Below, piece after piece: positions 5,808 through 63,065 of a stretch of DNA of 64,000 nucleotides (positions within the stretch are counted from its first letter, which is position 1; every line of letters starts with the position of its first letter). The position numbers and the translations under genes are program-made. The notes beneath the pieces were generated by a model, which did not search any database, was not told where the DNA came from, and saw only the letters and a program-made list of their open reading frames with translations. The stretch is from the IMG/VR virus record IMGVR_UViG_3300025120_014916, positions 62,001-126,000 of that record. The stretch is one strand, 5' to 3'. The DNA comes from a virus.

Positions 5808-8624
5808 CTAGACCGCCTTGATTTTTTTCGAAGTACACAAAAGATTTGTTATGTTATTTGGCTCTAAAAATGTACCATCTTTTAAAATATTTACACAATA
5901 AATTTCAACAACACCGACAGTTTCTCTCAGGTCTATAAAAAAGTTATATTGATTTTTTTTAAACTTTTCTGGGCTTATCATACCTAAAAAAGACAAAGCC
6001 CCGTTTGTTCTTGCATATATCGCATAAAAACTAGTTAATAATGATGAAGCAGATGATGTCATACCTAGAATACCCATTTTTCTATAAGCTTTTTGATTTC
6101 CATGAATTTTTTGTGAATGTGACATGTCTAAAAAGTTTGAAAACAGCAAAGATGACACTTTTTCTAAAGAGTCCGGGCTATATAGCTTATAAGTAAAGTT
6201 ATCGCCTGTTGTCCCTTCAAAGTAAAAATCATCTTTTTCTTTATTGTATTTTGTGATCGGATCAAGTATTAAACCAAAAAATCTTACACTTTTTCCCGTG
6301 TATTTGTCAACAGGTACACTAGATATAACCGTACCTGTTTTTCTTTTTTTATTTTTTCTAGCAGCTAATGTTCTTAAAAAAGAAGATATCGGTAAACTAT
6401 TTTGCTGTAAAGGGAGCTTTTCTATTTTATTTAACAAGTTTTCAACAACATAAGATATAGATGCTATCCTGGGTGTGATAACAACAATATATTCAGACAG
6501 CACATCTTCTATATCAATGGTCATAGAAACTGTTCTTGTTTTTTCTGGTACAATAAAGTTGCCAATATTTGTCTTTTCTCCCGTTCTGGTGTTGATCAGC
6601 GTTGCATTGCAAGAAATATTCTTCTTTAAAGATTCCTTGATTTCATTAAACTCAGCAGCAAATAGATCATATGAGTTTCTGTCTAGAGAATCAAAGAGTT
6701 TGTCTATCGAATCTTTTTTAACAGATACAGAAAAGCTTATAGGCAAAGAAAACTTATCTTGCATTTGATTGTTTTGACTATCAATAGCTTTTTTAGATCT
6801 AATCTTGACGTCAATAATATTTCTTCTTTTTTCATAAATTATCTCATATGAGTTAACTGAGAGCTCTGTTTCGCCGTTATCCTTGTAGACCATGGCCTTA
6901 TATTCGTATGCGTCACCTTCTTCTATGTCATTATCAATAAAAACAAATTCGTTGTCGTTGTTTTGCTTTTTTAAAAAAATTGTTTTCTGCGTTTTTAATT
7001 CTAAAATGTTTAAAGATTTTTCTTTTTGCAAGTTTGTGTCTTCTTGGTCAAAGTTTTGAATTATGTTAAACTTTTTTTCTTTTTTAGTAATATTTCTTTT
7101 AACGACATTTATTGCGCGGCAATCAAAAGGAATGTTTTTAATATATATACTTACCTCTTCTTGCTTTTTTACATTTGCCTTATTGGCATCGTTGATGCAG
7201 GTAATGCTAACGTAAGGACCGGTCTTCTTTTGATTTTTGCTTTTCATTATTATGTTATCAAAGAAGGTGTTGTCAAATGAGTATTCTGGATAGCTTACTT
7301 TCATTCTATAAAAATAGCTTTTTTGGTTTGAAATATTAGGCGCATTACCTCCTTTGAAAAAGTAGTGCGAGTTTTTTGACTCAATTTTCGCGATACCTAT
7401 ATGATTAAAAAAATAATTATTTTTAATATTTTTTGCATTAAAATCTGCTTGCATAATTCTGTATGAAGCATTGTGACTTGTATTATTTTGTATTTTAAGT
7501 ATTGGTTTTCCGGCCGGAGATCTTTGACACATCAACCCGTGATTTGAAAGGTGTAAGCTTTGTTCACGAAGATTTTTCTTGTTTATAAGCTTGTCTAAAT
7601 CTATCTTTGTTATGTAATAATCAATAATTCTTCTTTTTTTGTCTTTTGCATACACGATTATGTCAAATGTGTTTGATCCAAATTCCTTTATAAGCCTGCT
7701 AGAAATTTCAAGCTTTACTTCAATAACTTCATGCGTTTTTTCTATCTTTATTTTTTTTATTGAAAAATTGTTCTCGAGTTGAGGTATTGACGCTTCTACT
7801 AGCTTATGAAACTTGTTTTCAAATTTTGTCATATCCTGCCTAGACTTTATATTTTTCTGAAGCCGTCCTTTCAACATTTCATCTAGTGACTGGCTGGAAT
7901 AAAAAGATTTTGATATAATGCTAGCAGGATCAATTCCTGACATAAGATACTTATTAAAATCTTTTTTAAAATTTAGTTTTGATATTGATTCTTTTGATAT
8001 TGCTTGTAGCCTAGTATTTTCAATTATTTTAAAATTTTCTATTTCTCCTGTTTTTGAATTTGAAGACCTTAGTGAAAACAAATCAGCGCGGTGTTTGTTT
8101 TTGGAAAGATGATCATGAGGTTTTTTGATTTTTTGTAACTCAATTATATTTTCATAACCGAATATATCAATATAAGGTTTCTTTTTTTCAATAACATCAA
8201 TTATTTTTATTCCGGGAAAAAGCCTCGAAGCTATATCTACACCAAAAACCTGTGTCTGGTAAGCCTTTTCCATCTTGCTTTTAAAAGAGTCTCTGGCTAG
8301 TTGCTCTTTGTTTGCTATTGCAAAGTTAACATCTCTTGCGCTGCTTTTATTAAACCCTGACAGCAGATTATTTCGTGTTCTAAGATGACTTATATCACGG
8401 CATACATAACCTTCTAGTGCTGATGATTGATTTTTAATAGCAGAAACTTTATCAATAGGCACTTTTAACAAGATTATATGCTTTTCAATCAATTCTTTAT
8501 TTTTTAGATTTTCGTCTTTAGCTGTTACTGTGGCTAAGTATTCCGCCTCTAGATCTAAAGCAAACTTTTGGATATCTCTATACTTTGAAAATATATTCTT
8601 TTTTTTATTTGTTTTTATTAACAT
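5808..8624 (-). CDS. Large tail/baseplate protein with fibronectin-III-like segment (938 aa)
   Basis: Lys/Asn-rich 938-residue protein. The first ~250 residues look helical. Residues about 500-598 contain beta-strands ending in a stretch (GDAYEYKAMVYKDNGET) that resembles the last strands of a fibronectin type III domain. The C-terminal 250 residues are beta-rich and may be a second all-beta module. No signal peptide or enzyme motif is present. It is separated by one base from the gene downstream and two from the gene upstream, inside the leftward virion operon. Fn3-like domains are common in phage tail tip and baseplate proteins; the specific role is not determinable here. Confidence 0.65.
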   Translation of the reverse strand: MLIKTNKKKNIFSKYRDIQKFALDLEAEYLATVTAKDENLKNKELIEKHIILLKVPIDKVSAIKNQSSALEGYVCRDISHLRTRNNLLSGFNKSSARDVNFAIANKEQLARDSFKSKMEKAYQTQVFGVDIASRLFPGIKIIDVIEKKKPYIDIFGYENIIELQKIKKPHDHLSKNKHRADLFSLRSSNSKTGEIENFKIIENTRLQAISKESISKLNFKKDFNKYLMSGIDPASIISKSFYSSQSLDEMLKGRLQKNIKSRQDMTKFENKFHKLVEASIPQLENNFSIKKIKIEKTHEVIEVKLEISSRLIKEFGSNTFDIIVYAKDKKRRIIDYYITKIDLDKLINKKNLREQSLHLSNHGLMCQRSPAGKPILKIQNNTSHNASYRIMQADFNAKNIKNNYFFNHIGIAKIESKNSHYFFKGGNAPNISNQKSYFYRMKVSYPEYSFDNTFFDNIIMKSKNQKKTGPYVSITCINDANKANVKKQEEVSIYIKNIPFDCRAINVVKRNITKKEKKFNIIQNFDQEDTNLQKEKSLNILELKTQKTIFLKKQNNDNEFVFIDNDIEEGDAYEYKAMVYKDNGETELSVNSYEIIYEKRRNIIDVKIRSKKAIDSQNNQMQDKFSLPISFSVSVKKDSIDKLFDSLDRNSYDLFAAEFNEIKESLKKNISCNATLINTRTGEKTNIGNFIVPEKTRTVSMTIDIEDVLSEYIVVITPRIASISYVVENLLNKIEKLPLQQNSLPISSFLRTLAARKNKKRKTGTVISSVPVDKYTGKSVRFFGLILDPITKYNKEKDDFYFEGTTGDNFTYKLYSPDSLEKVSSLLFSNFLDMSHSQKIHGNQKAYRKMGILGMTSSASSLLTSFYAIYARTNGALSFLGMISPEKFKKNQYNFFIDLRETVGVVEIYCVNILKDGTFLEPNNITNLLCTSKKIKAV

Positions 8625-48184: not shown

Positions 48185-48212
48185 TAATATCAAGTCAGTA
48201 TTAATATCAAGT
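48185..48212. repeat. Direct repeat of an 11-bp word at the tail-fibre stop codon
   Basis: TAATATCAAGT occurs at 48185-48195 and at 48202-48212 (plus strand), 17 bases apart, the second copy containing the TGA stop of the tail fibre gene. Probably a small slippage duplication; no function evident. Confidence 0.6.
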
Positions 48213-51200
48213 ACCGAACGTCTTAACACCGTAAAGTCTTACTAGCCATTTCCCTGCGCCGTAAGTTCCTGCGTCAGACGTACCACCGTTTCCATTAGCA
48301 AGATATAAATAATAGTTATGAAGTCCATTTGTATATGCAGGATCTGTTGATCCTGGAAATGGGCCAATTTGTTCTTTATACTTACTTACAATCCAGTCGC
48401 CATCTGCATCAATTAATTTTGCAAAATCTCCACCAACTCCGCCACCTTCTGGTTGAAGATCTGATTTTGCATAAAGGTCTAAGTCGGGTTCTCCTGTTGT
48501 TGGAGCTTCTACACAAATCATTTCTGCCTTATATATTAAACCGTTTACTCCTGAATTAAGCCTTGCGAAATATGCGTTAGCTGCACCGGAACTGTCGCCT
48601 ATTATTCTTGCACCTGATCCGGCTGTTGACACCATATTATCAATATTTATTTTAAACGTTGTAACAACTTCATTGTTTATTTCTTGAACGTCAGCAGTTG
48701 GAGCGCCGTCCTCTCCGCCATCGAAACCATTACCACCAGCTGTTGTTGTACCAGCGTTCATTGTTACAGCGCCGCCATGATTAATTTCTAGTTTTGCAGC
48801 AACACTTGTTGCGTCTTCAGACTTAGCTGTAAAAAACGCTAGTTTTGTTTGGTTGTTAGCTGAATCAAATTCAGCTTCTGCGATTGCCTGAATAGAAGCA
48901 CAAATCTCTTGTGCATCTGTTCCAGATTCACCAATTGCCTGAAAATCTATTTGACCAACAACTTCATCAGCAACTAATGCTGCCTCACTAGATAATAAAT
49001 TAAGCCTGACTGGACTGTTATCACCTGTTGGGATTCCTAAAATAGTGAATCCGGCTGCAGGTACGTGGGCTACAAGAGAATTTGATCCGTCTTCGTCATA
49101 TTCAATATAAGCATCTGAATCTGTTCCAAATAGTAACTTTTTATCGTCTTGTATTAACACATCCTTGAAGAATGTAACAAGCTCAGAGCCACCTGTTGTT
49201 GCAAACTTTGCATAAAGATTACTGCCTTCTTTGATTACTAGTGCATCAGCTTGATTATCCGGTACTAATATTGCATTTTCACCTGCTTTAGAAAACTCGA
49301 GGGTACCTCCTGCGATTTCCAAATCGGTTCCAATTGTTAAGGGAGATCCACCGTTAAGTGACCCAGAAATTACAACGTCGCCACCGAATACTGCAGTTCC
49401 TAAGGTTGCTGTACCTCTAGAGCCTATCGATCCCGACACGAAGAAGTTAGTATCTGCGTAGAGAGATTCATTAATAGAGTTTGGTGACCCGTTAACACCT
49501 GATAGAATCAATACTCTTTTTGATTCTTTTATTCTAAATGTTTCTTGGTAAGGGTTTACGGTATTGCCTGAGCCGGCTGCGAGCGCTGATTGAAATATAA
49601 TGTCGCCGCCCGAAGCACTACCTTTACCTCGGCCTGCATTTAGAAATAGATCACCACCACCAAGATTATTATTACCACCAGCGGTCGCATTACCTGCATC
49701 GATGATAAATTTTCTACCTGCAACGTTGTTTGCAACCGTCGCTGATTCTATTGTTGCATCATTTGTATTTATTGTATCACCCAATATAACTGTGGGTATT
49801 CCGCCTCCGTTAACAACCAGTTTACCGCCCACAAGCATTGAAGATTGAACATGAACTGAATCATCTGCAGAAGATCCGGAAAGAATAACTTTGGCTGTAT
49901 TTGATTTAATAGTAACGCCACCTGCTGTCGACTCAATTTTAATAGCGTCATCTGCATTTCCGGATGTATTTGTTAACGATATCTTTTCATTAGCCGCAGT
50001 TCCGTGTGGAGTAAACACCATTTCAGTGGCTGAGGTTGGTCCTATTTTTAATGTTTTTCCATTTATCAAATTAGGTGCTATAAGCATGTCACCAGCAGTA
50101 GCGTCTATCTTAATAGCATCAGTGCCAGTACCGGCTGCAGTAATAATAATTGATGAATCATTTGCACCAACTTGTGCAATTGTTAAATCTTCTCCTGCAG
50201 TAGAAGAAGTGACAGTCAAGTTTACATCATCTGTTCCGTCGATAGATATTGTGGTTCCATCAATTGTCACAGCACCGGAAGCATTTACATCAAAAGTCGT
50301 ACCATCCATCGTGAACGTTCCATCAATATCTACATTATCTAGATTTGAAACTCCATCAACAGCAAGATCAGTTGTAACTGTCAAATCACCTGCAATAGTT
50401 GTTGTTGAAGCTGCACCTGCTGCTATTGTGACATCAACTTGTCCATCTGTTGCGTGTTCACCTTCAAGCTTAAGACCTGTTGTCATTGCAGTATTTGTAC
50501 CGTCACTTTCTGCAACTTGTAATTCTAATGTTCCCGCCTCGTCTGTTTCATCAGATTCGCTAATAGAAGCAACAATTCCAGCAAACTGTGTGCTATTGTT
50601 TCCTTCGTCTTCACCAAAGAATGTAATCTTACCAAGTATTTCACCGTCCTCTGTGTCTGCTGCGTCCTTAAGAAATTGCAATTCACCAGAAGAGGCTGCT
50701 GTTGTATTTGTTGTTTTGATTGTTACAACAGGTTTTCCATCGGTTGCGGAATCAATTATAACTGCCGGACTAGTAACTGTCAATGATGTCGAAGCTGCAA
50801 TTGATTGTGTCGCTGCGGTTGTTGTCATTGAAGTTGCATCTAAAGTTGCTGCACCCGTTACATCAATATCTAGAATACCTGCATCAATTTGAACTTCAGA
50901 TGCCGAATCTGCGTCTGCATCTATATGAAATGCGACGCCGGCAGTATGCGCAGTCTTTAAAATAATGTTACCAGCAGCGTTAGTGGATTCAATATCAATT
51001 GGATGAGCGCCAGTTGAAGTGAAATCTAGACCACCAGCAGAAGTAATGCCAACTGCTGCTGCTGCAGTTCCTGCAGAATCGATTGTTATAGCAGTACCCG
51101 CATCAAGTTCAACAGTTGCTGCGTTAACGTCTACTTTTGTAGAAGTATCATGACCCACTGTTATTGTTTTTGCTTGACTGATATTACCAATTTCGATATT

Positions 51201-54038
51201 TGATGTATTAGCATCTGCTCCAATCTTTATAATTTCAGATGATCCGAGCTGGAGACCGGGAGCTGCGTCTTTAATAAAGTGCTCTTGCCCTGTACCAATT
51301 TTAAGTGATTTTTCATCAGCTATGTATATATCGCCCCATTCATTTGTTGTAGTTCCTAGGTCACTTCCGCCAGAAGCGCTTGGAGATAAGTTTTTATTGA
51401 CTTCAAATGAGTTGGTATCATTCTGCCACTGGAATGTTTTATCAGTAGTACCTTTAATAGTAATACCGCCGCCATCTGCTGTAGTATCTGATGCAGCTGC
51501 AACATTAAAAACCATTGAACCTGCTGAACTGTGATTGGCATCAAGTGTTATTTGAGTTGCACTATTAATTGCAGTAATTGTCCTTGTACCGCTATTTGCT
51601 GTATTGAAAGCACCGGTTCCGGAGGCTTTTACAACTGTTTGACCAATAATCATTCCGGTGGTCGATGCCACATTAACAGTTGCATTTCCCGTGGTTAGAT
51701 TAGATGTTGCACTTACACTAGAAATTGCTACAACTGATCCTAATTCTATATTTTTATCATCAACTATCAATGTTGAACTGTTAACAGTCGTTGTTGTGCC
51801 ATTAACTACTAGATCACCTGCTACTACAACTTCGCCAGTTGATGATATTGTAAGTCTGTCTGTATTGCTTCCTGCATCAAATCTGATTTTGTCAGTGCTA
51901 TGATCATAATAAATTTGTCCGGATGCTGCAGCTGCGTTATCGCCAAATTGAATCAAACCAATATTGTTCGCAGAGCCTACCAACTGAATAGCTGGCCTTG
52001 CGTCATCTTCACTAATTACTGTTGCTGTTGTTGAATATACACCTCCTGATGATTGGTCACGTTTTGCATGGACCTCAGCTTGTGCCTGTTCTGTTCCGGC
52101 GCCTAGGCGTTCAACACTAAGATTAGCTTTTGTAAATGTCAGGTCGCCAGTACTTGCTCCTGTTGCTGTTGTTGTCCCAAGAGCAAACTCATCACGAGAT
52201 TCATCCCAGATAAATGCGGCATTATCGCTAGAGCCTCTTTCAATTATAAAGCCGGCGTCACCTGAAGGTGTTCCGGTGGTTCCATTTGCTAATTCAATTA
52301 ATTTATCTGAAGTTTTGACGCTTCCATCGAAAATTGATGGGCCTACGACTGTAAATGTATTTGAACCTGATACTGTCATCGAACCGGTTACAGTCATTGA
52401 ACCTGATATGGAAAGGTTTGCACCTACATTAGATCCGGATGCTGCTACTATTTCTACGTTACCGGAGACTATTAATGCATCATTTGATCCAGAAGCACCT
52501 ATCTTAAGTGGTGATGATCCCCTGAGTTCACCTTTTACTACTTGGTCACCCTCAACTACGAAAGTAGTGGCTTCACCAAACCTTCTTACTGTTATAACTT
52601 CAATGTTTCTAGAATTAAATCCAACTCCATCAACAACACGAGTAGTCGCATTTCGATGATCCGGATCACTTAGTACAATTAATTCTTGCAAGTCTGTGGT
52701 TGTCGTTCCTTCTGGAACAAAGCAAGGTTTTTGGAATATTGTTCCGGAAACAACTAAGTCACCTGCAATTACAGTTACCCCTGATGTTGCAGGTAGTCTT
52801 CCTGTTGTACCACACGCCCCAGATATATAAGTACTGATATCTGATGGAAGGGCTGTTGTTGCAGCATTCAAACCGTAACTCTTAGTTGCAGCAACTCCGC
52901 CACCCTGAATAACAACTTGATTTGTGCTACCGTCAACTAAAATAGCACCTTGCTTTTTTACTGGTGCACCTGAAATAATAGAAGAGCCCTCAACACGGAA
53001 ATCTGCAGTTTTACCGTCTTCATTGAAAACTGCAATATTTGATGCAGCAACAATAAAGTTAGAACCTGAGATTATTGTTCTTTTAAGACCGCCGCCGGCG
53101 TAGGTTGAACCAAAACCAATTACAACTTCACCAGTATTTGAACTGGTTAGGCTTTGTCCTATTACAGTGCTATAGTTTTGTTCTGTTTTGTTAAATATTC
53201 CACCCATAACATTAGAGTACGATCCGGATACCTTATTATAAGCCCCACCAAATATTCCTGAAAAATCAGAGCCACCTGAAGCTAGATTAGTTGTTCCAGA
53301 TATGTGATTATCTCCGCCTCCAACAATTACACTTGCACTTGAACCTGAGATAAGATTGTTCTTTCCGCCGAATATTGCATTTTTTGTATTTGACGTCAAT
53401 TGTGTTGGCTTAGTTGCGTTACCAAAACCTCCAACAACAGCATCATGCTCTCCTGAACCGGTTACTTTATTACCAAATGCAATACTATTTGTCCCAGAAG
53501 CTAATGGGCCATCACCAATAGCAACTGAATGTGTACCTGCTGCTAGCGGGTCTAATGCTGGTGTACCATTATATTCGTCATAATAGTGAAGACCTTCAAG
53601 CACATCATTTGTTATTGTACTTTTAATTGTTAGCTGACCATTTGATGCAGAAGTAATTTGAATTCCTGCAGCTGCAACAAGATATGAAACACCGTCAGCT
53701 GTATGGTGAATGGATCCACTTATAGACCCACCGAAGTTGCGGCCGGCGTCTTTAACAACAAGGGATCCGGAAATATAAGTATCGCCTTGAAGTAATACTG
53801 CTCCACCGTTTGAGCCGTCCTTAGAAGTCTGTGAACCACTTATAAAAATTGATACATCATTTCCGATATCTGTATATGCAGGCGCAGCTGGATTACCTCC
53901 AAGCTCATTTGGCGCTACTGACTCACTATAAACAGAAAGTTCTAGTTTTTTATGAACTATACCGCCGGAAGGCGAGCTTCCTGTCATTATTACTTTAGCT
54001 GTTCTTATTTGATTAGCTGTAAAATCTCTAACTGCCAT
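48207..54038 (-). CDS. Long tail fibre/adhesin with YadA-head-like and repetitive beta domains (1,943 aa)
   Basis: The first ~200 residues include GTHSVAIGDGPLASGTNSIA, the SVAIG-type repeat of YadA-like trimeric adhesin heads. The following ~200 residues have repeated short G-rich strands (IFGGAYNKVSGSYSNVMGGI). Residues 550-1900 are Ser/Thr/Asp/Ala-rich with repeated patterns such as SGSMTVTGSMTVSGSN and AGDLTVTTDLAVDG, as in long beta-helical fibre shafts. The C-terminus (DNMVSTAGSGARIIGDSSGA) may form the receptor-binding tip. No signal peptide. It is the likely host-receptor fibre and sits directly upstream of the glycan island. Confidence 0.85.
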   Translation of the reverse strand: MAVRDFTANQIRTAKVIMTGSSPSGGIVHKKLELSVYSESVAPNELGGNPAAPAYTDIGNDVSIFISGSQTSKDGSNGGAVLLQGDTYISGSLVVKDAGRNFGGSISGSIHHTADGVSYLVAAAGIQITSASNGQLTIKSTITNDVLEGLHYYDEYNGTPALDPLAAGTHSVAIGDGPLASGTNSIAFGNKVTGSGEHDAVVGGFGNATKPTQLTSNTKNAIFGGKNNLISGSSASVIVGGGDNHISGTTNLASGGSDFSGIFGGAYNKVSGSYSNVMGGIFNKTEQNYSTVIGQSLTSSNTGEVVIGFGSTYAGGGLKRTIISGSNFIVAASNIAVFNEDGKTADFRVEGSSIISGAPVKKQGAILVDGSTNQVVIQGGGVAATKSYGLNAATTALPSDISTYISGACGTTGRLPATSGVTVIAGDLVVSGTIFQKPCFVPEGTTTTDLQELIVLSDPDHRNATTRVVDGVGFNSRNIEVITVRRFGEATTFVVEGDQVVKGELRGSSPLKIGASGSNDALIVSGNVEIVAASGSNVGANLSISGSMTVTGSMTVSGSNTFTVVGPSIFDGSVKTSDKLIELANGTTGTPSGDAGFIIERGSSDNAAFIWDESRDEFALGTTTATGASTGDLTFTKANLSVERLGAGTEQAQAEVHAKRDQSSGGVYSTTATVISEDDARPAIQLVGSANNIGLIQFGDNAAAASGQIYYDHSTDKIRFDAGSNTDRLTISSTGEVVVAGDLVVNGTTTTVNSSTLIVDDKNIELGSVVAISSVSATSNLTTGNATVNVASTTGMIIGQTVVKASGTGAFNTANSGTRTITAINSATQITLDANHSSAGSMVFNVAAASDTTADGGGITIKGTTDKTFQWQNDTNSFEVNKNLSPSASGGSDLGTTTNEWGDIYIADEKSLKIGTGQEHFIKDAAPGLQLGSSEIIKIGADANTSNIEIGNISQAKTITVGHDTSTKVDVNAATVELDAGTAITIDSAGTAAAAVGITSAGGLDFTSTGAHPIDIESTNAAGNIILKTAHTAGVAFHIDADADSASEVQIDAGILDIDVTGAATLDATSMTTTAATQSIAASTSLTVTSPAVIIDSATDGKPVVTIKTTNTTAASSGELQFLKDAADTEDGEILGKITFFGEDEGNNSTQFAGIVASISESDETDEAGTLELQVAESDGTNTAMTTGLKLEGEHATDGQVDVTIAAGAASTTTIAGDLTVTTDLAVDGVSNLDNVDIDGTFTMDGTTFDVNASGAVTIDGTTISIDGTDDVNLTVTSSTAGEDLTIAQVGANDSSIIITAAGTGTDAIKIDATAGDMLIAPNLINGKTLKIGPTSATEMVFTPHGTAANEKISLTNTSGNADDAIKIESTAGGVTIKSNTAKVILSGSSADDSVHVQSSMLVGGKLVVNGGGIPTVILGDTINTNDATIESATVANNVAGRKFIIDAGNATAGGNNNLGGGDLFLNAGRGKGSASGGDIIFQSALAAGSGNTVNPYQETFRIKESKRVLILSGVNGSPNSINESLYADTNFFVSGSIGSRGTATLGTAVFGGDVVISGSLNGGSPLTIGTDLEIAGGTLEFSKAGENAILVPDNQADALVIKEGSNLYAKFATTGGSELVTFFKDVLIQDDKKLLFGTDSDAYIEYDEDGSNSLVAHVPAAGFTILGIPTGDNSPVRLNLLSSEAALVADEVVGQIDFQAIGESGTDAQEICASIQAIAEAEFDSANNQTKLAFFTAKSEDATSVAAKLEINHGGAVTMNAGTTTAGGNGFDGGEDGAPTADVQEINNEVVTTFKINIDNMVSTAGSGARIIGDSSGAANAYFARLNSGVNGLIYKAEMICVEAPTTGEPDLDLYAKSDLQPEGGGVGGDFAKLIDADGDWIVSKYKEQIGPFPGSTDPAYTNGLHNYYLYLANGNGGTSDAGTYGAGKWLVRLYGVKTFGT

Positions 54039-54682: not shown

Positions 54683-56041
54683 CTAAATTATTTCCGCTGC
54701 TATAGAAGATAAATATGACCTTTCTCCCTTTTTTAACTGTACATGGCCTGCAACTTTTTCATTTTTAAATTTTTCGCTAACAATAGTCAGACCATTAGAG
54801 TGTGAATCTATGTAAGGCGTATCAATTTGATCAACATCACCTAGTAAAACAATTTTACTATTTTCGCCAACTCTTGTAATTACTGTCTTTAATTCATGAA
54901 TAGTGCAGTTTTGTGCTTCATCCATAATTAAAAAAGTATCAGCAAATGTTCTTCCTCTCATGAAAGCTAGGGGTGCAATCTCAATATCCCCCTTATCTCT
55001 CATTGAACTAAAGTATGTAAGGTCATTATCTTTCAAACCTTGACGAAAGTTATCCATGATTGGTGCTATCCATGGAAGCATCTTATCATTCATATCGCCC
55101 GGTAAAAATCCTATATCCCTACCAACAGGCTGTACATTTCTAGTGATAACAATTCTTCTATATCTTCCTGCATGCAATCCTTCTATTCCTGCTAATAATG
55201 TTAAGTAAGTCTTTCCGCTGCCCGCTAGTCCGGTTATTGAAACAAGTGGAATAGAATCATCATTCAAAAGGTTAATTGCATAAAGCTGTTCTCTATTTCT
55301 TTCTTTTACCCAAGCTAGACCACTACTCATTTCTTCACTACTTTTTAGTTTTTTAATATTGCCTTCCGAGTAAAATCCTAAAAAGGATTGACTTCCTGAT
55401 TTTAAACAAATAAATTCGTTTTCTAGAAATTTTCTTCCTAAACTCTTTTCTGCTGCAGTTAAAATGGTCTTATTATGTGAATGCAGATCAGAATAGCACA
55501 TATCTATAATATAATTGTCACTATCTTTTATTTCTATATCGACATAACCTCTATAGAATTCTTCATCTGCTAAATCTATTTTATCTTTAAGATAGTCTTG
55601 CGCAGTAATCCCCAGTGCATCACACTTAACTCTGAAGTTAATGTCTTTTGTTACCATTATGACAGGACATTTATTTTTTTGAGTTAATTCTAAAGCTAAT
55701 CCGATCATCTGATTGTCTGGGGAAGACGCGTCCAATCCTACTGGTACCTTGTATTTTGTTTTAATATCAACTTTTATTGTTTGATTACTTCTATTTTGTA
55801 TCTCTATGCCTGAATGTAAATTTCCAACCTTTCTTAAATTATCCAAATATCTGTTTACATATCTCGCATTTTCACCGATTATACCTTTTTTATCTTTAAA
55901 CCTATCTAATTCATCAAGTGCTACTAACGGTATAAGTACATCATTACCAGAAAAAGAATGAATTGAGCACCTATCGTAAAGCATCACGCTGGTATCTAAA
56001 ATAAATATTTTTCTATTTTTATCTGTTTTTAACTTAGACAT
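54683..56041 (-). CDS. PIN-PhoH fusion protein (PhoH2/YlaK type)
   Basis: I choose the ATG at 56041 (AAGGTG lies nine bases upstream); an in-frame GTG at 56053 would overlap that site. 452 residues. The N-terminus is a PIN nuclease domain with an Asp in IFILDTSVML and further acidic residues (LVALDELDRF). The C-terminal PhoH ATPase has Walker A TGLAGSGKTYLT and Walker B FLIMDEAQN. PIN-PhoH proteins are RNA-helicase/RNase-like and common in phages. It precedes the small fibre gene by 17 bases. Confidence 0.92.
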   Translation of the reverse strand: MSKLKTDKNRKIFILDTSVMLYDRCSIHSFSGNDVLIPLVALDELDRFKDKKGIIGENARYVNRYLDNLRKVGNLHSGIEIQNRSNQTIKVDIKTKYKVPVGLDASSPDNQMIGLALELTQKNKCPVIMVTKDINFRVKCDALGITAQDYLKDKIDLADEEFYRGYVDIEIKDSDNYIIDMCYSDLHSHNKTILTAAEKSLGRKFLENEFICLKSGSQSFLGFYSEGNIKKLKSSEEMSSGLAWVKERNREQLYAINLLNDDSIPLVSITGLAGSGKTYLTLLAGIEGLHAGRYRRIVITRNVQPVGRDIGFLPGDMNDKMLPWIAPIMDNFRQGLKDNDLTYFSSMRDKGDIEIAPLAFMRGRTFADTFLIMDEAQNCTIHELKTVITRVGENSKIVLLGDVDQIDTPYIDSHSNGLTIVSEKFKNEKVAGHVQLKKGERSYLSSIAAEII

Positions 56042-56092
56042 TATACATTTCACCTTTTTTTTGTTTTTTTTAAGTAGACCGGTTATTATTAT

Positions 56093-56909: not shown

Positions 56910-57377
56910 TTACTCCACAATATCAACAATTACATTGTTTTTAATTTTAAAAATATTAGACGATGATACTTCTATAGTTTTTACATGTTGTTTTTCATCT
57001 ATTATCTCTCTTCTTAACACAACGACTTCACCCCATCTTTCTTCTTCAAATATGTCTACTATTTGTTCCCAATTAGATATATCAGTTTCTATTTTTATAA
57101 GTGCGTTTGTCAGCCTTTCTGGTAGCATGTATCCTAATTCTTCTATAGAGACTGTTAAACTGCTTTGATCTTTTCCGCCTCTTATCTCTGATCTACATAT
57201 GTCTTTAACGTGGTGCATCGTATCACAGTTGTTGCACTTTACTAGTTTTGGAATTACATTTCCATTCTTATCAAACTTAGAATATACTGGAAATTTGTGA
57301 CTAGGCATTTCTTTTTTTACAGCCCTATATATTGCTAAAACACAGTGACACTCTATTAAATGCTTAATTCCCTGCAT
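56910..57377 (-). CDS. Unknown phage protein with a Cys motif (155 aa)
   Basis: A CNNCDTMHHVKDICRSE stretch suggests a small zinc-binding site (Cys-x2-Cys with His and Cys following). The rest is mixed alpha/beta; the C-terminus contains EERWGEVVVLRREII, a beta-strand region. N-terminal 14 bases overlap the chaperonin-like gene. No family recognised. Confidence 0.65.
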   Translation of the reverse strand: MQGIKHLIECHCVLAIYRAVKKEMPSHKFPVYSKFDKNGNVIPKLVKCNNCDTMHHVKDICRSEIRGGKDQSSLTVSIEELGYMLPERLTNALIKIETDISNWEQIVDIFEEERWGEVVVLRREIIDEKQHVKTIEVSSSNIFKIKNNVIVDIVE

Positions 57378-58614
57378 GTATGACCAGCCTATCTATTTGT
57401 GAATATATATTTTTTATACTGTTTACCTTTTTATTGACAAAATTTATCAAATTTTTTGGTAGATAATAGGCTGAACTATTAAGACTTACAACACAGAATA
57501 CTTTATTTGAATGACCGGTCAACCTCATCATATAATCAACTTCTCTTATAAAGTCATTATTAGAATATAAAATTTCAGGTATAAATAGTTTAATTGACTT
57601 ATTAGTAAACCTCTTTATCCTTTTAGATAATAGTTTTTTACTTTCTTCGTGCACTGTTATTTTATTTAATTTATTACTAAGAAAAGATCGATGAATTACT
57701 AGATCCGCTTCCGAAGCAACAGGTTTTATTTTAAAACCTTTTTTATGAAATGTTATTTCTCGACCTACCGATAAATTGCTTCGAACAGCTTGTGATATTG
57801 TCTCTCCCGTCCTACTAGAAACAATATTATCTTTATGCAGGACTGCTATATCATTTAGTACATTTATTGTATTTTCATCAAATGTTATGATAATAGGCAT
57901 AACTTCAAACTTGCTATGTGAATTATTATGTTTTATTACATGACTTACTTCATCTGACATTCCAAAACAAAAAATTACATGAGGTACTTTTGTTTTATTT
58001 GCCTGGTCAAGTAAATGGTGTATTTCGCCTATTGATTCTACATACCCGTCAATTATGATAAACTTGTAATCACTCATTGTGTGGAAGTCTTTACCTCCTA
58101 AAAATGATGTGTCGTAATCTAGATCAAAATTAAGAACGTTCTTTTTTTCAACATATATATCTGTTAACTTACTACTATGAATACTAACAGTGTACTCGCG
58201 CGAAGCATTTTCAATAATCCATTTAAAAATGGATTTTAACTCTTTAAATTTAAAGCTATCAATAAAGTATTTTGATGAATCTTTGCAAAATAGATGTTTA
58301 TCATAAATTTCTTTATTTTCTTTTGAAAAATACTTCTTAATAAAAAAGTCTCCCAAGTATGGGTATATCTTTTCACATTCAATAAATTCTTTTTTTAATA
58401 ATAACTTTAACTGTTCTTTGCACTCATTACCAGAAAAAGTATTTAAGTAGTTTAATGCTTGATCTGAAACTAAATTCATATCAGAGTAAAGACATTGCTG
58501 ACTATTCCTTAGATCATCGAACATTATATTGCTTTCATCTAAGAAATTATCAACTTCCTTTCTATTAAAAACTTTTTTCTTTTTAGGAATCACGCCATAA
58601 GTTGTTTGCTGCAT
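57364..58614 (-). CDS. Divergent chaperonin-like protein: GroEL apical domain without ATPase parts (416 aa)
   Basis: Residues about 175-295 align by eye with the GroEL apical domain: FIIIDGYVESIGEIHHLLDQ corresponds to the FILLADKKI...VLE helix pair, then PHVIFCFGMSD to PLLIIAED, then INVLNDIAVLHKDNIVSSRT to the LQDIATLTGG..IS strand and a later VGREITFHKKG. Further down, KLLSKRIKRFTNKSIKLFIP followed by FIREVDYMMRL resembles the intermediate-domain helices. The N-terminal 170 residues lack the GDGTT/DGTTT-type ATP motif, and the C-terminal equatorial half is missing. It may bind substrate or a host chaperonin without ATPase activity. It overlaps PrkA by 32 bases and is the next gene of that operon. 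Confidence 0.6.
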   Translation of the reverse strand: MQQTTYGVIPKKKKVFNRKEVDNFLDESNIMFDDLRNSQQCLYSDMNLVSDQALNYLNTFSGNECKEQLKLLLKKEFIECEKIYPYLGDFFIKKYFSKENKEIYDKHLFCKDSSKYFIDSFKFKELKSIFKWIIENASREYTVSIHSSKLTDIYVEKKNVLNFDLDYDTSFLGGKDFHTMSDYKFIIIDGYVESIGEIHHLLDQANKTKVPHVIFCFGMSDEVSHVIKHNNSHSKFEVMPIIITFDENTINVLNDIAVLHKDNIVSSRTGETISQAVRSNLSVGREITFHKKGFKIKPVASEADLVIHRSFLSNKLNKITVHEESKKLLSKRIKRFTNKSIKLFIPEILYSNNDFIREVDYMMRLTGHSNKVFCVVSLNSSAYYLPKNLINFVNKKVNSIKNIYSQIDRLVIHAGN

Positions 58615-60511
58615 ATGTCAATATCTCTTCAGCTGAATTCTCATTGTAACCATATTCTTCCATTAGAGTTACAAGCATCTCGCTGTATCTTTTCTTTTGG
58701 TTGTCATCTCTTGATTTTGATTTTGTAACAATCCTGGAAATGTCCTTTACAGATGTAATAAGGTATTGTTCTACTGCATCTTTTAGAGGCCCATAAGATT
58801 TATAATCAACTGTTTCTTTTCTTCGTAACTTAGAAAACATATAAGCAGTTACATCAGATCTAAAACCATCTCTAGCTGATCCGACCACACCAATCATCTC
58901 TTCAATAGATTTCATGAATTTTTCATCAGGTTGTCTTTCTTCTCTGGTTATTTTGTCTTTAAATCTAGTCTTAGTTGTATAAGCCTCTGCGTTATCTAGA
59001 TAAGAATCAAAAAGTGACTGCGCTTGTTCTTCGTAAGCTGTTATAAAAGCTTTCGCGATTTCTGTTTCTAGTATTCTTAAGTATTCTTCGCGAATAATCT
59101 TACCTAATATCTCTGTGTATCTACTTTTTGCTTCTTCGTCAATTATTTGTTCTTTTACTTGTCTAGACAGCGAGTCAATAACATTTATAGGAGTTATCAT
59201 GTTTTTATCAGAATCTGAAAGAGCTGCGTCCAATGCTTTCATGATAAATCTAGTTGAAATTCCTTCCATTCCTTCATGCTTAGCTTCGTCTTTTAAGTCT
59301 TTAATATCTACTTTTTTAACACGACCTTTTTCTATAATTGCTTCACCATTATAGATTTTCATTTTAGTAAGTAGATCGCACTTATTTGATGGCTTAAGTC
59401 TACTCATAACTGAAAACATGGAAGCTATTTTTAAAGCATGAGGTGCAATATGCGCTTTATTAAAGTCTGATTTTCTAATAACTTTTTCATAAATTTTCTG
59501 TTCTTGATCTAATTCTAAAACATAAGGTACTTCAATCTTTAACACCCTATCCAGAATAGCCTCGTTGGTGTGTTCAGATTTAAATCTGTTCCACTCTGAT
59601 TCGTTGCAATGTGATAATATTACGCCATCAAAGTAGATCATATCGTTCTTACCTGGGGAAGGTACACGCTTTTCTTGTGTTGCAGTTAACATTGTATGCA
59701 AGAATTCAATTTCATTTTTAAATACTTCAACAAATTCAACGATACCGCGGTTACCAACGTTAAACGCACCGTTAAGAGATAGGACTCTGGGATCATCTTC
59801 TGGATAAAGATCTAGTTTACTAATGTCTTCAGTTCCAATCAATACAGAGACATCCTGGGAGTTTGCATCCATAGGAGGCACCACAGCTATACCTCTGCGC
59901 CCTCTTTGAGAAAAAGTAGTCTGGGTGACTGGAAAATTTTCATATTTTCCATCAAATTCTGTCATAAGCCGGTGGCGACAAACTGGGCACAGATCACCTT
60001 CTAAATGTACACCCAGAATATCTTCAAATTCTGACCTTAGTCCTCGAGGAAGTAAGTGAAGTGGCTCTTCTTTGATTGGACAACCTTCCAAGTGATAAAA
60101 AGGCTGGGAGGACTCTAAGGACCTTTTTACAGCTTCTACTAACGCAGATTTTCCGGCACCAACTGGACCCATGAGCAAAAGTACTTGCCGGCTTTCTTCA
60201 CCTTTATGTGCTGCTGACTTTAAAAACCTCATCAGTTTGTTAATAACTGATTCCATTCCAAAAAACTCTTTTTCAAAATAGTCGTAAGTTCTAATCTTGT
60301 CACCATTAAATATGTCTCTATATTGGTCTGAATCAACATCAACAGTATCCATTCCAAACTTTAAGATGGCTTCGTAAAGTCTTTTATGGGCAAGTTTAAC
60401 TGTTTCCGGTTCTTCTTGTATGACTCTTAAGTAATCTAGAAAAGTTCCTTTAAACTTTTTATATTTTGAAGCTGATCTTTGTTTTTTGATCATATCTAAA
60501 AAATTGCTCAT
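58583..60511 (-). CDS. prkA: PrkA-family AAA+ serine protein kinase/protease-like protein
   Basis: 642 residues, same length as bacterial PrkA (E. coli YeaG 644). Walker A is GPVGAGKS (residues 115-122). Residues 171-183 (EGDLCPVCRHRLM) hold Cys175 and Cys178 as in Gram-positive PrkA. NESEWNRF and GISTRFIMKALD are further family motifs. The C-terminus ends with a kinase-like domain. In bacteria PrkA works with YeaH and SpoVR in stress and stationary phase; a Bacillus homologue has been reported as an ATP-dependent protease. Here it is the third gene of a transcript containing the same partners, with a promoter-like box of its own 33 bases upstream. Confidence 0.93.
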   Translation of the reverse strand: MSNFLDMIKKQRSASKYKKFKGTFLDYLRVIQEEPETVKLAHKRLYEAILKFGMDTVDVDSDQYRDIFNGDKIRTYDYFEKEFFGMESVINKLMRFLKSAAHKGEESRQVLLLMGPVGAGKSALVEAVKRSLESSQPFYHLEGCPIKEEPLHLLPRGLRSEFEDILGVHLEGDLCPVCRHRLMTEFDGKYENFPVTQTTFSQRGRRGIAVVPPMDANSQDVSVLIGTEDISKLDLYPEDDPRVLSLNGAFNVGNRGIVEFVEVFKNEIEFLHTMLTATQEKRVPSPGKNDMIYFDGVILSHCNESEWNRFKSEHTNEAILDRVLKIEVPYVLELDQEQKIYEKVIRKSDFNKAHIAPHALKIASMFSVMSRLKPSNKCDLLTKMKIYNGEAIIEKGRVKKVDIKDLKDEAKHEGMEGISTRFIMKALDAALSDSDKNMITPINVIDSLSRQVKEQIIDEEAKSRYTEILGKIIREEYLRILETEIAKAFITAYEEQAQSLFDSYLDNAEAYTTKTRFKDKITREERQPDEKFMKSIEEMIGVVGSARDGFRSDVTAYMFSKLRRKETVDYKSYGPLKDAVEQYLITSVKDISRIVTKSKSRDDNQKKRYSEMLVTLMEEYGYNENSAEEILTYAANNLWRDS

Positions 60512-60534
60512 TGTTTCCTCTTTTAATCTATGCT

Positions 60535-60558
60535 GTTATACATTTAGTATATTATACT
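60535..60558 (-). promoter_or_regulatory. Promoter-like boxes upstream of prkA
   Basis: The gap 60512-60574 has AGTATAAT (60558-60551) and ATGTATAAC (60543-60535) on the minus strand, with AGAGG before the prkA ATG. The pair gives prkA a possible promoter separate from the SpoVR-YeaH genes. Confidence 0.45.
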
Positions 60559-60574
60559 GTTGTTAATGAATTGT

Positions 60575-61906
60575 TTAAATTTCCCATACATCATTTTCAA
60601 TAATTGTAAATAATTTTACATCGCCTTCTTGCCATAAATGCCTTATGCTTTCCACTACATTGTCTGCATAGTCCAGATCTAGGTCGCGGCCATCATGTTC
60701 ATGCTTTAAAACCAAAGTTCCGTCTGAGTCGATTCTATCTACATAGATGTGTGGTATTGTATTGACGCCTGTATTTTTGATCATTTCGCTTCTTACTATT
60801 TGCCATTCCTCTTGATCTGATACTTCTGCTATGAATATATCGCCATTCTTCTTTCTTTCGTAAGCAAACATGTTTAATTCTCTAAAATCTTCTTCTTCTA
60901 GGAATAATCTAATTGCTGATACATCATCATGTATTTCTCTAACTTCAAAACATTTTTCTAATCCAAACTCTTTTTCAAGTTTTTGGAATATATAGAAACC
61001 TACGTGATAGGGGTTAACTCCCCCAATATGTGGCCGGACAACTGCATTGTGCATTTTAAGAAAAGGAACATGCATTCCATCATCTAGTTGAAGTTCATGT
61101 AGAATTTTGTAATGCCAAAAAGATGCCCAGCCTTCATTTAATATTTTTGTTTTTATCTGGGGCATAAAATAATGACTTTCATCTTTAACTATTTCAATTA
61201 AGTCTAATTGCCATTTTTCATAGCCGCGACTATACTCTAATAAAAAAGATAATAAATCATGATCTTGTTTAAGCAATCTTTTATTTAAAACATTGTAGTC
61301 TAATAATATTCCTTTTTCTTTATAAATGTTAAATCTATCAATCTCTGCTGTTTTAATTTCTGATTTTGATCTTCTGGGAATTCCGTACCTTTCTGTTTGA
61401 AACCTGACAGTGTGTAAACTATCTAAAAACTTTTCTACTTTCTCTTGACCTATATTAGGATCTTCGGTGTACTCTTGAATTCTACGTTTAGCATTTCTCA
61501 TTTTAGAAACTATGGTTTCCGGATCTGTTTTACTAAAACATCTATTATTTTTAAAAAAGTCACTATGACCTACGCAATGAGCCATAATCAAGACTTGCAA
61601 ATAAAAATCATTTTGTAGCATTAAATAAGCTATTGAAGGATTTGAGTTAATGATTAATTCATAAGGAAGACCACTTTGACCCATATTATACATAAAGTGT
61701 GTTTTTTCAAATGATTTACCATAAGACCAGTGATTATAGTGACTAGGCATTCCATGATATGCCATATGTCCAATCATTTCATAATAGTCACAAATTTCAT
61801 AATTAATAGGATACCAGTCTAGATCATATTTTTTTGCAATTTCGCATATCTTATCATCAAATACTTTAAGGTCTTCTATTTTATACTTATCTTTATTGAA
61901 CTTCAT
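60575..61906 (-). CDS. spoVR: SpoVR family protein
   Basis: From the ATG at 61906 (GGTGG lies a few bases upstream; upstream TTG/GTG codons in frame are less likely), 443 residues; bacterial YcgB/SpoVR is about 500. The diagnostic LNEGWASFWHYKI is present, as are YEMIGHMAYHGMPSHYNHWS and FLKMHNAVVRPHIGGVNPYH. SpoVR homologues are needed for spore cortex formation in Bacillus and are co-expressed with prkA/yeaH elsewhere. It overlaps the DUF444 gene by 14 bases. Confidence 0.94.
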   Translation of the reverse strand: MKFNKDKYKIEDLKVFDDKICEIAKKYDLDWYPINYEICDYYEMIGHMAYHGMPSHYNHWSYGKSFEKTHFMYNMGQSGLPYELIINSNPSIAYLMLQNDFYLQVLIMAHCVGHSDFFKNNRCFSKTDPETIVSKMRNAKRRIQEYTEDPNIGQEKVEKFLDSLHTVRFQTERYGIPRRSKSEIKTAEIDRFNIYKEKGILLDYNVLNKRLLKQDHDLLSFLLEYSRGYEKWQLDLIEIVKDESHYFMPQIKTKILNEGWASFWHYKILHELQLDDGMHVPFLKMHNAVVRPHIGGVNPYHVGFYIFQKLEKEFGLEKCFEVREIHDDVSAIRLFLEEEDFRELNMFAYERKKNGDIFIAEVSDQEEWQIVRSEMIKNTGVNTIPHIYVDRIDSDGTLVLKHEHDGRDLDLDYADNVVESIRHLWQEGDVKLFTIIENDVWEI

Positions 61907-63065
61907 ATTTACCACCAAGAAGTCTAGAAAACTCAGGCCAGATATCTTTTTTACCTGAGACTTTTACCACCTTAAAACTATCTGATGACAGTGGCTCGAA
62001 TACTTTTGCCATTTCTTCTCCCCACATAGATTCTTTCTGGCCTTTTATTTGAATATAACCAGATAATTGACTAAGATTAATTAATCTTTCCATATAATCT
62101 ACTGCTTTAACATTGTCTTCTTTCCAGTTTTCACCATCTGAGCAGTGGAAAGTATATATATTCCAAGCGCTTGGGGAATATCTTTCATTTACAATATCAT
62201 GTGCCATTTTAAGACCGGAGCTTATGTAAGTACCACCCGATGAACCTTTTTTAAAAAAATCATCTTCGTTAACTTCTTGAGCTTCTGTTGAGTGAGAAAT
62301 AAATACTGTTTCAATATTTTGATATCTATACCTTATAAACTGATATAGTAAGAAAAAGAACGATCTGGCCAAATATTTTTTAGTTTTTGTCATTGAACCT
62401 GACGTGTCCATTATGAAAAATATTACTGCACTAGTAACCGGTTTTTTAGTAACCTCTATGTGCTTATATTTCAAATCATCATCATGAAAAGTAAATCTTT
62501 CATCACCTTCCGGATCGTGTGTACCGTTTCTTATTGCAGCTTTTTTTCTTCTTATCTTATTTTTAAGTGTTTCTTTTTTTGAAAGTCTAGGTCTTATCCC
62601 TTTTGTTCTATATCCTTTTCTTTTTACTTTTTCAGAAAATATTTCTGCAGATTTCTTTTTAACTAGATCAGGCAAGTCTAAATCATCAAATAGATACTGG
62701 GCTAGTTCATCTAAAGATACTTCAACATCATAGTAGTCTTCGCCCTTTTCGTTTCCCGGCTTATCAGGGTCTCCTTTACCTTTTTGTTTTTGTCCTTCTT
62801 TTATCTTCTGACCCTTTTTAATATCAGATCCAGGTGCAGCACCTACCCCCTTAGATCCGTTTCCTTGATCGTAAATGAATCTGTATTCTTTCATACCTCT
62901 TACAGGTATCTTAATCTTCTTTTTTCCACTCTTTCCTATAATGCTTTCTTCAGCTATAATATCATGAATGCCTTCTTTGATAGCTTTATCTATTTTTTCT
63001 TTATGTCTTCTTCTATCTGATGCTGATCGATCAGCATTAGTATTGTGTTTTTTAAATATTGACAT
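61893..63065 (-). CDS. yeaH: YeaH/DUF444 (UPF0229) protein with VWA domain
   Basis: 390 residues, slightly shorter than E. coli YeaH (427). An N-terminal charged region (RSASDRRRHKEKIDKAIKEG) and IPVRGMKEYRF are family marks. The VWA MIDAS site is IMDTSGSM at about residue 218, and VFISHSTEAQEV and SDGENWKEDN complete it. First gene of the PrkA-SpoVR-YeaH operon here. Its GC-poor codon use is like its neighbours, so transfer is not recent. AGAGAGG precedes the ATG. Confidence 0.94.
   Translation of the reverse strand: MSIFKKHNTNADRSASDRRRHKEKIDKAIKEGIHDIIAEESIIGKSGKKKIKIPVRGMKEYRFIYDQGNGSKGVGAAPGSDIKKGQKIKEGQKQKGKGDPDKPGNEKGEDYYDVEVSLDELAQYLFDDLDLPDLVKKKSAEIFSEKVKRKGYRTKGIRPRLSKKETLKNKIRRKKAAIRNGTHDPEGDERFTFHDDDLKYKHIEVTKKPVTSAVIFFIMDTSGSMTKTKKYLARSFFFLLYQFIRYRYQNIETVFISHSTEAQEVNEDDFFKKGSSGGTYISSGLKMAHDIVNERYSPSAWNIYTFHCSDGENWKEDNVKAVDYMERLINLSQLSGYIQIKGQKESMWGEEMAKVFEPLSSDSFKVVKVSGKKDIWPEFSRLLGGKYEVQ

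Follow-up and report, generated by a model that had tools for sequence, protein, structure and literature searches.

A YeaH-SpoVR-PrkA gene set conserved in a lineage of large, mostly marine phages

Introduction

What is a virus doing with PrkA, YeaH and SpoVR, three proteins whose biochemical job is unsettled in bacteria, where proposals for PrkA have included kinase, protease and other roles? A preliminary description of a 64,000-nt stretch of viral DNA (hereafter the window; positions 62001-126000 of an IMG/VR virus record that is 136,409 bp long) had reported all three genes as neighbours, and had proposed that they form a complete stress module encoded by a phage rather than a simple recent copy of a host operon, one that might let the phage govern host dormancy, the nitrogen or stress response, or protein turnover. 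Does the set belong to the phage, and if so, what might it do? The answer reaches beyond this one genome, as divergent phage versions of the trio could be used for reconstitution and complementation, giving a route to study the three bacterial proteins.

Gene arrangement

The three genes lie on the minus strand at 58583-63065. All are full length and collinear, and they are read in the transcript order YeaH, SpoVR, PrkA. With their downstream neighbours they are:

61893-63065, minus strand: YeaH/YhbH/DUF444, 390 aa, VWA domain with an intact MIDAS (PF04285)
60575-61918, minus strand: SpoVR, 447 aa from a TTG, probable start at the ATG at 61906 (PF04293, PF24755)
58583-60511, minus strand: PrkA AAA+ ATPase, 642 aa (PF08298, PF06798, PDB 9xip)
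57364-58614, minus strand: degenerate chaperonin (Cpn60/GroEL-like), 416 aa, its start overlapping the 3' end of PrkA
56910-57377, minus strand: conserved neighbour, 155 aa, lying downstream of PrkA in most of the clade loci covered
54683-56053, minus strand: PIN-PhoH (PhoH2-like; PF02562, E 2e-53; PF13638, E 1e-25), with conserved synteny in most of the loci covered

The overlap between YeaH and SpoVR measures 26 nt, or 14 nt with the ATG at 61906 as the SpoVR start. SpoVR and PrkA are separated by 63 nt, and PrkA overlaps the chaperonin-like gene by 32 nt. All three genes are thus linked on one strand, the linkage by which a PrkA-YeaH-SpoVR module is recognised. GC content is level across the region, and the surroundings are those of a phage, with baseplate-wedge matches, PhoH and exonuclease genes. 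The claim that a complete trio is phage-encoded is borne out, as the genes are intact, lie on a viral contig and are under selection (see below).

No promoter signature was common to the regions in front of YeaH, and a T4-type late promoter, TATAAATA, was not enriched there (3 of 100, against 3.8 in shuffles). A PADLOC search for a defence family gave no strong match to the trio, the only one being a weak P-loop match between PrkA and DolB (E 9.7e-6), and we rejected the idea that the trio is a known anti-phage defence system. Elsewhere on the minus strand, 48207-54038 encodes a GC-richer, repetitive protein of 1943 aa that is likely a tail or surface fibre. The stretch at 26100-48137, also on the minus strand, holds glycosyltransferase, epimerase and methyltransferase genes among many genes of similar size, which suggests a large sugar-decoration block.

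Features of the three proteins

Assignment of the proteins to PrkA, SpoVR and YeaH/DUF444 is secure, with Pfam scores far over the cut-offs, and the motifs named in the preliminary description are all exact: GPVGAGKS in PrkA (residues 115-122), EGWASFWH in SpoVR (262-269) and IMDTSGSM in YeaH (218-225). PrkA contains both family domains in order, PF08298 (E 5e-143, 476.9 bits) and the C-terminal PF06798 (residues 381-633; E 5.3e-75, 252.8 bits), each against a cut-off of 25, and it matches the solved structure PDB 9xip at E 1.5e-98. Its intact Walker A is at least 99% conserved among 101 proteins of the phage clade, except at A119. Against NCBIfam PRK15455, the E. coli-type YeaG equivalog, it scores 397.7 bits where the cut-off is 576; we class the predicted protein as a member of the family and not as a YeaG equivalog. 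Residues 175-178 read CPVC in the window, as in PrkA of Thermus phage and Alicyclobacillaceae; some members of the window's own phage clade have SPIA or SPVA instead, and E. coli has SPWA. The motif is possibly a zinc knuckle that comes and goes.

SpoVR matches PF04293 full-length and over the cut-off (residues 12-385; E 6.7e-111, 371.3 bits) as well as PF24755 (E 1.2e-6). Among 103 proteins, the residues of H114-x3-H118, E262-G-W-A and H269 show at least 99% conservation. This pattern invites comparison with zincin-like metallopeptidases (HxxxH...EGWA). We set that idea aside as unsupported, because an AlphaFold model (pLDDT 87.9) returned no significant fold match in the PDB, the protein had no peptidase match in Pfam, and the glutamate of HExxH is missing. 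YeaH matches PF04285 over the cut-off (E 1.9e-115, 386.8 bits), and scores 407.9 bits against the 468-bit cut-off of the NCBIfam spore_yhbH equivalog TIGR02877. Its MIDAS (DxSxS, T, D) comprises D220, S222, S224, T279 and D310, at least 99% conserved in 101 proteins.

A chaperonin relative beside PrkA

The gene overlapping the end of PrkA shows homology to the apical and intermediate domains of GroEL/Cpn60, both by profile against GroEL-type chaperonins in the PDB (E 4.6e-36) and by a Foldseek comparison of its model with GroEL (E 1.5e-18). It scores 25 bits against the 582-bit cut-off of TIGR02348, and in an alignment of the members inspected the nucleotide motif (GDGTTT) and the larger part of the C-terminal equatorial region are absent. 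It is a fast-evolving, truncated chaperonin homolog in a clade that also encodes full-length GroEL, and may be a pseudo-chaperonin partner or a decoy. Full-length GroEL, in open frames of 534-545 aa, was present in each of the nine related contigs that reach 235 kb or more (L355-L360 are among these records), with GDGTTT intact in six of the six inspected; no GroES partner was found in 12 records. The 155-aa neighbour at 56910-57377 had no match in Pfam, PHROG, PADLOC or NCBIfam.

Distribution in marine viruses

Scanning viral contigs with the window PrkA gave 28 loci. Profile scans gave 421 stretches for PrkA and 462 for SpoVR, and the best 80 of each were fetched. The order YeaH-SpoVR-PrkA was present in 177 of the 180 fetched IMG/VR loci of the clade, the other three being cut at a contig end. 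Because several loci share a contig, about 100 distinct complete copies per protein is the safer count. Identity to the window is 64-88% for PrkA and 50-78% for SpoVR and YeaH, and YeaH and SpoVR overlap or lie at most 20 nt apart in 87 of 90 loci. Contigs of the clade reach 293 kb, several exceeding 235 kb. These viruses, mostly marine and large bacterial ones, carry an intact and strictly conserved YeaH-SpoVR-PrkA set. The survey of viral genomes called for in the preliminary description turned up the same trio in the same order in about 100 distinct loci.

Compared with the nearest relative (L002), each of the three genes has a dN/dS of about 0.06 (PrkA 0.086/1.44, SpoVR 0.155/2.77, YeaH 0.138/2.06), with dS saturated. 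By these ratios the trio genes are under strong purifying selection.

The 180 loci had been chosen by their PrkA or SpoVR content, and independent sampling through a baseplate gene was added. Among contigs of at least 100 kb with this gene, four of five hold PrkA, the fifth being a fragment of 109 kb; three of the four were already in the PrkA-derived set. From these few independent contigs, the trio is likely present throughout the lineage. A scan with another window gene, 5808-8624, found no relatives.

Phylogeny and bacterial counterparts

Where did the set come from? We searched 200 Bacillota, 144 Bdellovibrionota and 200 Pseudomonadota genomes (phylum names after the named centre loci). 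About a dozen Bacillota have a second PrkA paralog, and this is the nearest bacterial PrkA sampled, 53-58% identical to that of the window; YeaH and SpoVR of the same locus are 44-50% and 40-45% identical, respectively. Several of these bacteria also hold a canonical PrkA, 34-40% identical to the window protein, and for canonical Bacillota PrkA the identity is mostly 37-42%. In all 11 covered loci that are not cut by a contig end, the second paralog lies within its own PrkA-YeaH-SpoVR locus, and the two loci checked had ordinary chromosomal surroundings. This second locus (L255-L266) is apparently unnamed and differs from the canonical trio of the Bacillus type, which several of these genomes also carry.

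The marine phage clade has a support of 100/98 in the PrkA tree, with three MAG contigs inside it, and joins the Bacillota paralogs at 99/97; one long-branch Bacillota row, L266, is unsurely placed inside the paralog group. The SpoVR tree is in weak agreement, the phage clade joining the Bacillota paralogs at an SH-aLRT of 83, and in the YeaH tree an E. coli/LR745206 pair is nearer to the phage clade (91, long branch). Among the sampled phyla, the best reading of the sequences is that PrkA shares ancestry with the Bacillota type, by transfer in either direction. SpoVR and YeaH likely share that ancestry, although for them it is not proven. The three MAG contigs (L040, L041 and L042, from GTDB) have been binned as Methylococcaceae, Halobacteriovorax and Legionellales. 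Their loci are very similar to that of the window (69-71% matches), and because they share the phage neighbours of the clade and branch inside it, they look like misbinned jumbo-phage contigs. One of the three MAGs also has another PrkA and SpoVR, separate from these and more distant.

The preliminary description had used gene order as an argument against a host copy, stating that bacteria normally have prkA-yeaH-spoVR. This is the commonest order in our sample, but it is not universal: ycgB is unlinked in E. coli, and one Bacillota genome (G071, locus L268) has YeaH-SpoVR-PrkA. Since the order of the window recurs in this bacterium and in Thermus phages, while the nearest bacterial relatives have the other one, gene order is weak evidence, and we rejected it as a sign of independent origin. 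The conclusion that the trio is not a recent host copy nevertheless stands, because it follows from sequence divergence: the phage proteins form a clade of their own, at a distance from the nearest bacterial PrkA. Nesting inside one host genus with pseudogene decay, which would have spoken for a recent copy, is contradicted by the PrkA tree and by purifying selection.

Possible function

We favour the reading that the trio is a working, phage-owned stress module, an AAA+/VWA/SpoVR remodelling unit that would sustain the infected cell under stress, and give this a probability of roughly 55%. Partnership between AAA+ and VWA proteins is known from MoxR-type pairs, and by analogy phage PrkA and YeaH may be such partners. 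PrkA would form an ATP-driven AAA+ ring, YeaH would act as its MIDAS-dependent VWA adaptor, and SpoVR could be the effector or client. Together they would remodel a protein target, probably one tied to a stressed envelope or translation state, and the infected cell would be kept productive through a slow, starved infection. Parsimony favours an ATP-driven remodelling complex, because an intact AAA+ protein and an intact VWA/MIDAS protein always have a conserved third protein beside them; the part played by SpoVR is a guess, as it has no significant relative of solved structure. Remodelling is preferred to phosphorylation or proteolysis because PrkA of Bacillus anthracis oligomerises with ATP but has no kinase and negligible protease activity; that bacterium requires it to survive osmotic stress, and it influences sporulation genes (PMC13001217). 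Also counted for the stress-module reading is that the trio occurs, together or almost so, in other phage groups. That the trio is intact in every covered locus, with related sets in those other groups, is strong natural evidence of one unit that matters in the infected cell. Counted against the stress-module reading are the lack of a common promoter signature in front of YeaH and the YeaH and SpoVR trees, which decide less than that of PrkA.

The trio might instead antagonise its host counterpart, its subunits entering host complexes and preventing the cell from going into stationary phase or dormancy. Phages commonly take over stress responses, and an identity of 53-58% at best to bacterial trios would allow mixed but altered complexes. 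However, a blocker needs one altered subunit only, while here the phage retains the three subunits with all their catalytic motifs, under strong purifying selection, which makes antagonism improbable. A machine for virion assembly or phage-protein maturation, acting with phage chaperonins, would suit the conserved neighbourhood with its chaperonin-like gene and the full-length GroEL elsewhere in all of the largest related contigs. Yet the trio also occurs in phage groups placed elsewhere in the PrkA tree. Moreover, the mini-chaperonin does not adjoin PrkA in some members, so that its functional tie to the trio is a possibility only, and we find an assembly role similarly hard to credit. More doubtful still is that the trio and the adjacent chaperonin, devoid of an ATP site, form one viral protein-quality machine, in which PrkA would give ATP-driven force and the inactive chaperonin would present substrates or cap the phage GroEL.

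We see next to no chance of a chimeric assembly, or of contamination by host DNA, in this region. The very similar loci in three marine bacterial MAGs might point that way, but those contigs carry phage neighbours and nest in the viral clade, and the distant PrkA and SpoVR of one MAG are separate from its phage-like locus. Level GC content and the recurrence of the same order in about 100 distinct viral loci also argue against a junction of phage and bacterial DNA at about 57-63 kb, which the preliminary description had named as fatal to its claim; synteny, MAG neighbours and tree placement together lead us to reject it. The phage-owned stress module remains our preferred reading.

Comparison with known systems

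The novelty implied for a phage trio was overstated, as cultured Thermus phages carry the trio and a Ralstonia phage is annotated with two of its genes. As far as could be found, what is new here is the spread and uniform conservation of the trio in a marine lineage; phage carriage of the genes was already known. The literature covered on PrkA and SpoVR in phages gave no account of the trio as a phage system, and the marine and jumbo phage literature covered did not mention it, but this is weak evidence, as subscription journals lay mostly outside the coverage.

All 11 records of the Thermus phages phiYS40, TMA, phiLo, MN1 and Lalka have PrkA and DUF444. In phiYS40 and MN1, SpoVR is annotated between them in the YeaH-SpoVR-PrkA order of the window, phiYS40 differing by an extra gene before PrkA. 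Thermus phage PrkA is only ~30-34% identical to the window protein and falls elsewhere in the tree. In the Ralstonia jumbo phage RsoM2USA, annotation places SpoVR (ORF28) and PrkA (ORF30) near each other, its SpoVR being 56% identical to a Vibrio protein according to the authors; by the text of that paper alone, YeaH is not named, unlike in the window (PMC8504454). The uncultured huge phages LR745206, LR756511, LR756504 and LR756502 have all three genes, as the window does, but three of them have the bacterial order PrkA-YeaH-SpoVR, and SpoVR is far off in LR756502. Among 80 loci from a second set of viral contigs, 74 follow the bacterial order and the others are without a part; some of these contigs may be host or prophage DNA. 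YeaG-YeaH of Enterobacter phage LAU1 was set aside, as it lies at the very end of the record beside prophage-type genes and looks like flanking host DNA.

The LR745206 PrkA falls together with E. coli YeaG, unlike that of the window, and the marine clade, the Thermus phages and LR745206 occupy three different places in the PrkA tree. These places suggest at least three acquisitions by phages, with caution for the long Thermus branches. Among bacteria, PrkA-YhbH-SpoVR of Bacillus comprises the same three families, as do YeaG-YeaH and YcgB of E. coli, which are ~30-32% identical to the window proteins and in which ycgB is unlinked from yeaGH. The second Bacillota locus is chromosomal in the two cases checked and has the order PrkA-YeaH-SpoVR, whereas the window has YeaH-SpoVR-PrkA in a phage.
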